Source: Leptodactylus fallax (taxonomy: Eukaryota > Chordata > Amphibia > Anura > Leptodactylidae). From it: a DNA stretch of 64,000 bases. Under the pieces are notes generated by a model. That model did no database searches and was not told where the DNA came from. It worked only from the letters and a program-made list of their open reading frames with translations. Made by a program: the position numbers and the translations under genes. Positions within the stretch are counted from its first letter, which is position 1. Each line of letters begins with the position of its first letter. The stretch is taken from the NCBI GenBank assembly GCA_947044405.1, contig CAMRHE010000011.1, positions 9,733,001 through 9,797,000 of the forward strand, in the 5' to 3' direction. Of this stretch, positions 27,956-31,315 are shown piece by piece.

Positions 27956-28186
27956 ACTATGTAACACAAATTTTGTTCCCAGCTTTTAAATGTTATATTC
28001 CAATTGCTTATGTCTAAAACAAATTAAAAATTGCTTACATTCATCATAAACTTCGCTTTTGTGACCACGGCAACAAAAATTATGCATTTTTACTATAGAA
28101 ACAGACGATTTTGCATCTTTTCATTTATACAGTCAGACTAAGAACACTATATGCATTGCAAATTTACACAGATTACCAAAAACTGT

Positions 28187-30000
28187 TCAGAAGTGTGCGG
28201 TTTTCTGAGATTTACGACTATACTGCAAATCAATTTCACGAATCAATCCCCAAATATAGTCGCCCATCATGTTTTCGTTATATTGTCTTGGTAACGGCGT
28301 TCAAAGTTCATAATGTCCTGGTGAAAGCGCTCGCCTTGCTCCTCTGAATAAGCTCCCATGTTCTCTTTGAACTTATCAAGATGAGCATCAAGGATATGGA
28401 TTTTGAGTGACATCCTGCAGCCCATTGCAGCACAGTTCTTTATCAGAGTCTGAACCAGTTGTACATAGTTTTCATCTTTATGATTGCCTAGGAAGCCGCG
28501 AACCACTGCGACAAAACTGTTCCAAGCTGCTCTCTCCTTCCTATTCAGCTTCTTGGGAAATTCACTGCACTCTATGATCTTCTTGATTTGTGGTCCGACG
28601 AAGACACCAGCTTTGATCTTTGCTTCAGACAGCTTAGGTAAAAGATCTTGGAGGTAATTGAAAGCTCTCGACTCCTTATCTAGAGCCCTGACAAATTGTT
28701 TTATGAGCCCCAACTTGATGTGTAGTGGTGGCATCAGCACCTTGCGTGGGTCCACCAGTGGCTCGCACTTTACATTGTTCTTCCCCACAGTGAACTCTGT
28801 CCGCTGAGGCCAGTCCCTCCTGTGGTAGTGCGCTTCAGTATCCCGGCTGTCCCAAAGGCAAATAAAGCAAGGATACTTAGTAAAACCACCTTGGAGGCCC
28901 ATCAGGAATGACACCATTTTGAAATCTCCGATAACTTCCCAGCCGTACTCATCATACTTCAAGGCACCTAGCAACATCTTGACACTGGTGTATTCCTCTT
29001 TCAGGTGCACCGAGTGAGCTACAGGAAGAGACAGATACTTGTTCCCATTGTGAAGCAGCACGGCTTTGAGGCTCTTGCATGAGCTGTCTATGAAGAGACG
29101 CCACTCATTCAGGTTACAGGTGATACCTATAGCCTCAAATAGACCGGCCACATTGTTGCAGAAGCACAGTCCATCTTGATGACTGAAGAAGATGGAAAAA
29201 CCTTGGTGACGCTTCCTCTGATCTGTGACTTGGACGCTTTCATCTAATAAGTTCCATTGCTTGAGCCTTGATGTCAGAAGCTCAGCGTTGGACTTGGTGA
29301 GACCAAGGTCTCTGATCAGATCGTTGAGGTCTTTTTGGTTAGGGTAGTATGGCTTCCGCTCCTCATCTGCATATGAAAAGAAATTGTGATCTTCAACGTC
29401 TTCCTCAATGTCTGACCTGCTGCTTTCTTTTGAAGGTGGTGTAGCTCTGTCTGGAGGTGTTGGTACAGGAAGTTCAGGGCAGTGTAGTACTGGGGCAATA
29501 GATGACGGAATGTCAGGATACGTTACAGGCGGTGCATTTTTGCCAGTGCGACGTTTGGAAGGGTCCACCATGCAGAGGTAGCAATTTGTTGAGTGATCAG
29601 TCGGTTCACGCCAAATTCTTGGGATAGCAAAATGCATGGCTCTCTTCTCTCCCCTGTACCAACCTATAAGCAAACAAAATAATATTTGGATTGAGAATTT
29701 GATTTAGGCCTATTTCACACTAATGACTAGTGATATTTACAATATTAACACAGTTAATCTGCTATTTAAGAGAGTAGCATTTATCCACTTACCTTCAAGA
29801 GTTTTCTTGCAGTGCTCACATGTGAAATGAGGAGCCCATGGTTTATCTTGGTCACCAACAGGCATGCCGAAGTATGCTTTGTAGGCCTCACACATCTTAG
29901 CAGATGCTTCCACAAAGTACTTTTTCGCTCTTGTCTTTATAAACTGGCCACATACGTAGCAAAATGCGTCTGCTGGATGTATGCAACCTCTTGATGCCAT
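28187..30000 (-). CDS. Transposon-encoded Zn-binding, RNase H-fold-like protein (putative transposase)
   Basis: Exon 1 is 30000-29793 (ATG at 30000) and exon 2 is 29663 downwards. Joining at G|GT keeps the frame. The N-terminus carries Cys pairs C14/C17, C61/C64 and C97/C100, suggesting zinc-binding modules. An acidic, Pro/Ser-rich linker follows (about residues 110-165). Then come D262 in LFIDSS, D316 in VIGDFKM, CxxC...HxH (C335, C338, H348, H350), PPLHIKLG at about 381-388, and a Glu cluster in YSEEQGERFH (about 508-516). A D...D...Cys/His insert...E pattern resembles DDE-type transposases, but the catalytic roles are inferred. Near 28285 a frameshift replaces the last ~35 residues. The other frame continues to a stop at 28187-28189. 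From memory, very similar unnamed proteins occur in Hydra, arthropods and fishes; this needs a search. It was probably intact until recently. Confidence 0.7.
29664..29792 (-). other. Intron of the putative transposase gene
   Basis: 129 bp, donor AAG|GTAAGTGG and acceptor TTTGCTTATAG|GT on the minus strand. Both match the spliceosomal consensus closely. The reading frames on either side join without loss. Confidence 0.8.
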
Positions 30001-30361
30001 CTAAATTGACTAAGTTGCTGTGAACTGTAAGGAAAAAGGATGTCTCTCCAAACTTGATAAAAATGGTCTTTATTCCATGCAGTATTAAAGTTCAAGAGTG
30101 TACTGTGGATTCAGCAGAGCAAGATTGATCACCCGGTACCAGAGTAACACACAATATATACATTTACATTCCTAAGCTCCTCCTGTAATGGGTGTGGGGT
30201 GAAGTGTGAATACTGTCATTATCAGAATCTGAATAGATATTGAATTCACACCTGTCTGTCTAGGTCAATTCCCCTTTGTCTGTGATGGCCATTGCCCACT
30301 TACTATGCAATCCCAATCAATTAGATCCTGTCTCTCTGTCTCTCAGGAATGGCTATCGTGG

Positions 30362-30482
30362 CCCTATATACTGTAACTGTAGTTATACAGCTACCTACAA
30401 TTCTGTACACTCCCAGAAAGTTCTAGATAATTCTGGGCAGTTCTAGAAACTTCTTGATAGTTCTCACAATTCCAGAAGCTTC
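30362..30482 (-). promoter_or_regulatory. Heat-shock-element cluster and TATA box
   Basis: Two perfect three-unit heat-shock elements are present: TTCTAGAAACTTC (30441-30453) and TTCCAGAAGCTTC (30470-30482). A partial third, GAAAGTTCTAGA, lies at 30416-30427. Reading towards the gene (minus strand), a TATATA box follows at about 30364-30370. That is the spacing order of hsp70-type promoters. The ATG lies about 360 bp further downstream. This suggests HSF-driven transcription of the transposon gene; function is inferred. Confidence 0.65.
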
Positions 30483-30654
30483 TTAAATATCTTCAAATAT
30501 TGCGAATATCCTTAAAAATAGATCAATTTCAAAATATCATTGTGCTAACCACAAAAGCAAAGTTTACAAGGAATAATAACTTTTTTCTATTCATTTAAGG
30601 TACAAACAATCAGGAAAACACACTTAACAACTGGGAACAAATTTTTTTTGAAAA

Positions 30655-31315
30655 TTGTCACTAGGTCTCAGCCTTTTAGCAAAAACCCAGTCTCCCACTT
30701 CCAGCTGTTTGAAACGATGACTGCTCTTATCTGCATATCTTTTCATCCTGCCTTTGGCAAAGGAATCATTGAGGACCATTGGTGTCTGTATGGAAACTAC
30801 AGGGATGTTCGGAAGCTTAATGCGCAAAGGCCTGCCGAAAAGCGCAGTTGCTGGGGCAGTTCCTGTAGTAGAGTGTGGGGTGGCTCTGTACTGTCTAAGG
30901 AATCTGTATAATTCTTGTTGCAAATCCTTGTGCTCCATGGTAGCAGTCCGAAGAGTTTTGTCGATTGATTGCATGAAGCGTTGCAATTCGCCATTGGCTT
31001 GAGGCCAGTAAGGAGTTATTTTCCTGTGGGTGAAACCAAGATAAGTTGCAAAAGACTGAAAATCTGCACTATTGAAAGGTGGTGCATTGTTGGTCTTTAC
31101 GGTTTCAGGTATGCCATATGCAGAGAAGATCTTGTCCAGTTATGGTATGATGGCTCTTGCAGAGGTGGTGGAAACAGGTTTAATGACTGAAAACCTATAT
31201 AAATCATCTATGACAACCAGTAAATAGGAATGATATAGCAAAGCGCAAAAATCAACACGAATGGCAGTCCACGGACTTTCTGGCAGAGGTGACTTTAGTA
31301 CTGGTGCTCGGCCCT
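30655..31315 (-). pseudogene. Gypsy integrase catalytic core
   Basis: The minus frame 31140-31424 (Gypsy part to 31316) contains WTAIRVDFCALL and LLVVIDDLYRF, covering the first catalytic Asp of the DDE integrase. It then reads STTSARAII. The frame at 30624-30986 continues with YRATPHSTTG and GDWVFAKRL, the end of the core and the start of the C-terminal domain. Frameshifts separate the two frames. The N-terminal zinc finger is displaced to 33650-33760 by insertions, and the C-terminal segment to 27836-27955. Confidence 0.85.

Follow-up and report, generated by a model that had tools for sequence, protein, structure and literature searches.

Chapaev3 transposons are documented in Repbase Reports 2007 and 2008 (cited in PMC4411706), and the families Merrow, Garfield and Conan are described in the passages of PMC4079192 on which we draw here. 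According to these passages, Chapaev3 elements have CAC..GTG ends, 3-bp TWA target duplications and the protein motifs C(2)C, LH and H(4)H; Merrow is 2451 bp long and encodes 78 + 484 residues in two exons, while Garfield is 2289 bp long and encodes 78 + 478 residues, also in two exons. The Merrow hosts they name are lampreys, sturgeon, catfishes, paddlefish, tuna and a dragonfly. The passages of PMC5993827 available to us concern a reverse-transcriptase-derived piece and contain no Merrow element. We analysed a 64,000-nucleotide stretch of the Leptodactylus fallax genome (contig CAMRHE010000011.1, positions 9,733,001 to 9,797,000; hereafter the window), in which a preliminary description had placed an unclassified DNA transposon at 27956..30655. 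We assign this element, with a probability of about 0.92, to Chapaev3: a cut-and-paste DNA transposon of the CMC clade, on a Merrow-like branch, inserted in a Gypsy-type integrase region. Its reading as a DNA transposon is borne out by a two-exon gene and by terminal inverted repeats (TIRs) about 100 bp long. The proposed membership of a poorly described group does not hold, because Chapaev3, a group outside those with which the element had been compared, has the same gene layout, motifs and range of hosts. The element is a real, aged and ordinary transposon that adds a member to Chapaev3 and is no new kind.

Between the element ends lies one minus-strand gene, as had been claimed, with an ATG at 30000, a 129-bp GT-AG intron and 534 codons up to a stop at 28269-28267. 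The catalytic residues are D262 (29088-29086), D316 (28926-28924) and E514 (28332-28330). The frame ends early, and the 32 residues that close the family protein are encoded in a different frame, the mark of a frameshift; judged from the sequence, this copy therefore probably makes a truncated transposase. It is probably not self-mobile and might be moved by intact copies. From exon 1 to the right TIR (30001-30549) the interval is long, and a solo long terminal repeat (LTR) or other nested insertion possibly lies there.

The transposase belongs to a large family of homologues; whole members have about 480–570 residues, and the family conserves D, D, E, C(2)C, LH and H(4)H. Among 29 chosen homologues, the D, D and E, the second C, the LH histidine and both H of H(4)H were present in every one, and the first C in 28; C(2)C, LH and H(4)H are also found in the window protein. 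The fish protein P0002 has 562 residues, and several members have 484, starting at the methionine that follows residue 78 in both P0002 and the window protein. The latter thus reproduces the 78 residues ahead of the shared methionine, and its second part is short by the frameshift. Identity to the window protein was 95% for P0001 (Metynnis), 84% for P0002, 81% for the sturgeon protein P0020 and 76% for the lamprey protein P0083. In two trees, of 44 and 32 rows hand-picked from 120 homologues, the window copy groups with copies from Metynnis, Serrasalmus and Pygocentrus, the sources of its nearest homologues (support 100; 100/99), and a lamprey/sturgeon/Myxocyprinus clade stands separate from this clade and near it in both.

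Two homologues deserve separate mention. P0006, from the mantis shrimp Oratosquilla oratoria, is 81% identical to P0002, which is hard to square with descent; horizontal transfer of Merrow is already published, as stated in the passages of PMC4079192 used here. In the predicted protein P0097 (Serrasalmus rhombeus), which has immunoglobulin-type Pfam domains, the transposase match is 92% over 56% of the query; either the gene model is an artefact or a piece of transposon has been exonised.

In searches of Pfam, NCBIfam and PDB sequences, the transposase matched no family above cut-off; its weak GRAS, interferon and LIM matches were discounted as chance. Foldseek against viral models gave no match at E 0.001 or better, and relatives sought in collections of genome and viral contigs yielded none that was confirmed. 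When the transposase core was modelled, its best fold matches were RAG1 and Transib (50 entries among the matches listed), so the modelled protein has an RNase H-fold core of RAG1/Transib type. On this model, Chapaev3 is structurally related to RAG1, the antibody-gene recombinase. By sequence, hhalign of the RAG1 core against the transposase was not significant (probability 0.3%, E 0.19), and RAG1 was absent from the profile search of PDB sequences with the transposase. The N-terminal domain with two C-x2-C pairs (29793-30000 and its homologues) gave repeated zf-AD (ZAD) matches below the Pfam cut-off, as did the N-terminal stretch of RAG1.

At the element ends, the block AATTTTGTTCCCAG occurs at 27969-27982 (+) and at 30644-30631 (-), the second copy with one mismatch, and the block ACTTYGCTTTTGTG at 28050-28063 (+) and 30563-30550 (-) with zero mismatches, its sole two exact matches in the window. 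The two blocks stand as first described and lie in exact inverted register; their spacing, given as 63 and 64 bp, measures 67 bp on both sides. Taken alone the AATTTTGTTCCCAG block is weak, because as a loose 3-mismatch pattern it has 21 matches in the window versus 12.2 expected. The TIR length of about 100 bp was upheld: BLAST aligned the ends over 96 bp (69.8% identity, E 3e-5), and 68 of 99 positions agree without gaps when counted from 27965. The TIR local score was 53, with a maximum of 38 among 2000 Markov resamplings, a statistic limited by the 6 of 1956 random real pairs drawn from the window that also attained 53; our guess is that these are other transposable-element copies. A general repeat scan of the window listed 11 pairs, this TIR not among them. 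The left terminus is CAC at 27965, flanked by TAA, a proper TWA, and the ends lie more likely near 27965 and near 30650 than at the positions first proposed, although doubt attaches to them. The almost wholly preserved spliced frame might also suggest that this is no mobile element but a domesticated host gene. We consider this hardly credible, given that the gene is enclosed by TIRs, sits inside another mobile element, is frameshifted and has several close relatives in separate clusters of Metynnis and Serrasalmus.

The surrounding DNA places the transposon inside a Gypsy-type element. The right flank is an integrase fragment, with weak rve matches and 63 homologues at E 1e-20 or better, and 18 of these 63 match flank peptides on both sides. 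Together with the LTRs, this supports the nesting that had been proposed; the continuous integrase frame claimed with it appeared strictly in one of three cuts tried. A single open Gypsy frame results when the flanks are joined as TAA|TTG, which takes one base more than a 3-bp cut. Being inserted inside the Gypsy element, whose LTRs diverge by 6.6%, the transposon is the younger of the two. A repeat fragment at 31324-31713 in the host integrase region is a further insert.

The same flanks contain CACTA on either side, which would fit a Transib-like (RAG1-type) or other CMCT lineage occupying 27960 to 30658 with a 5-bp duplication. Transib target duplications are 5 bp (PMC4411706), RAG1 and Transib head the fold matches, and CACTA is one of just four direct repeats of at least 5 bp between the end regions and the only one lying outside the TIRs on both sides. 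A cut at CACTA, however, breaks the Gypsy frame and makes the TIR arms begin 9 and 14 bp ahead of their shared block; on these two grounds, frame and TIR register, we place CACTA as a 5-bp duplication, and likewise a Transib heptamer, behind the Chapaev3 reading, as a rival to it. The solved structures in the fold list are RAG1, Transib, P and Hermes, and no Chapaev, EnSpm, Mirage, Kolobok or Sola structure was among the matches listed, an absence that carries no information about these groups; fold rank therefore cannot separate Transib from Chapaev. As both the gene layout and the hosts match Merrow, a Transib-like origin appears unlikely.

Several observations weigh against the Chapaev3 assignment and its boundaries. 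In this single copy the right terminus is CAA instead of CAC, and the right flank is AAA instead of TAA. A strict 3-bp cut leaves the Gypsy frame broken. In 18 comparisons with the homologue, the uncut Gypsy flanks were longer each time, by 5 residues in 14 cases, by 4 in two, by 3 in one and by 10 in one; the boundary could therefore be elsewhere, or the Gypsy family could have a longer loop. N-terminal 'Chapa' kinship to RAG1 went unseen by sequence, the hhalign comparison of the RAG1 N-terminus not being significant. Finally, Chapaev3 was compared by its published description, with lamprey and sturgeon proteins substituting for Merrow in place of a Repbase reference sequence. The last point and the unclean termini of this copy could accommodate an undescribed CMCT lineage near but outside Chapaev3, yet 78 + 484 residues in two exons, C(2)C-LH-H(4)H and the lamprey and sturgeon members fit the published description, and we regard such a lineage as very improbable.

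RAG1 and Transib form hairpins on flanking DNA. For an intact Chapaev3 member, we propose that the whole transposase would bind the long TIRs, perhaps via its N-terminal zinc domain, and that a metal-dependent RNase H-fold active site would cleave at the CAC..GTG ends. To judge by the clade, cleavage would probably follow the RAG1/Transib-type route, with hairpins formed on flanking DNA, and the excised DNA would be joined to its target with a 3-bp stagger, giving the TWA duplication.

Table 1. Positions of the transposon, its gene and its Gypsy-type host in the window.
Feature	Position	Strand	Basis
Most likely extent (2686 bp) of the DNA transposon, Chapaev3-type, Merrow-like	27965..30650	-	TIRs, gene, left CAC start; right end CAA
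Left TIR	27965..28063	+	68/99 ungapped agreement with right end; BLAST E 3e-5 over 96 bp
Right TIR	30550..30650	-	Block match, local score, BLAST, ungapped agreement
Candidate 3-bp target duplication, left copy TAA (fits TWA)	27962..27964	.	Sequence; TWA rule from PMC4079192 (passages used)
Right counterpart of candidate duplication, AAA, one base off, within AAAA run	30651..30653	.	Sequence
CACTA, rival 5-bp direct repeat	27955..27959 (left), 30659-30663 (right)	.	Sequence
Exon 1, zinc-binding domain with two C-x2-C pairs	29793..30000	-	ATG, GT donor; 97% identity to P0002 over 68-residue query
Intron, 129 bp, GTAAGT..TAG	29664..29792	-	Homologues such as P0002 read through without intron
Exon 2, RNase H-fold DDE transposase core (fold modelled), early stop TGA 28269-28267	28267..29663	-	Motifs, homologue alignment, modelled fold
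Final 32 residues of family protein and stop, in different frame	28187..28285	-	Comparison with P0001, P0002
Host Gypsy-type LTR element, ~10 kb	27314-37356	-	LTRs, integrase homologues; also carries other inserts
Host LTRs, 93.4% identical	27314-27539 and 37131-37356	-	BLAST
Host integrase pieces either side of transposon	31139-30659 and 27954-27826	-	Homologue matches

Other mobile elements are present in the window. A repeat of about 1.6 kb with inverted ends has three copies (12257-13862, 42121-43734 and 62134-63725; 92–93% identical), the first of which has a 209-residue frame that, by eye, reads like a Tc1-type transposase. The frame at 33073-33426, with a DDE_3 domain (E 1.9e-9), is probably a Tc1/mariner remnant.

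Placement in Chapaev3 eliminates a candidate 'new transposon group'. Among the homologues whose names were seen, from fish, crustaceans, insects, a frog and a sponge, the labels are 'uncharacterized' or 'hypothetical', with one RING-ligase name. Given these labels and the lack of a Pfam match above cut-off, a Pfam-type Chapaev3 model would name many proteins. The kinship to RAG1 and Transib, seen only in the modelled structure, would recommend intact copies for studies of RAG-like transposition.

Compared with known systems, the window protein resembles Transib and RAG1 in the modelled fold of its core, and RAG1 also in motif spacing: 19 and 22 residues from the second D to C(2)C, and an equal four residues between the two histidines. 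With Garfield it shares the two-exon layout (78 + 478 residues in Garfield) and the motif set; Garfield differs in its hosts, having been published from silkworm, other insects and a Cotesia bracovirus (PMC4079192, passages used), and the Cotesia wasp protein P0047, a candidate Garfield, is 57% identical to the window protein. Merrow (Chapaev3-1_PM) is alike in form, with two exons, 78 + 484 residues, about 2.4–2.7 kb, C(2)C-LH-H(4)H and lamprey and sturgeon relatives near the window protein. Unlike Merrow, the window element stands on its own branch with copies from piranha-family fish, is frameshifted, has an altered right terminus and, at 2686 bp versus the published lamprey 2451 bp, is 235 bp longer.
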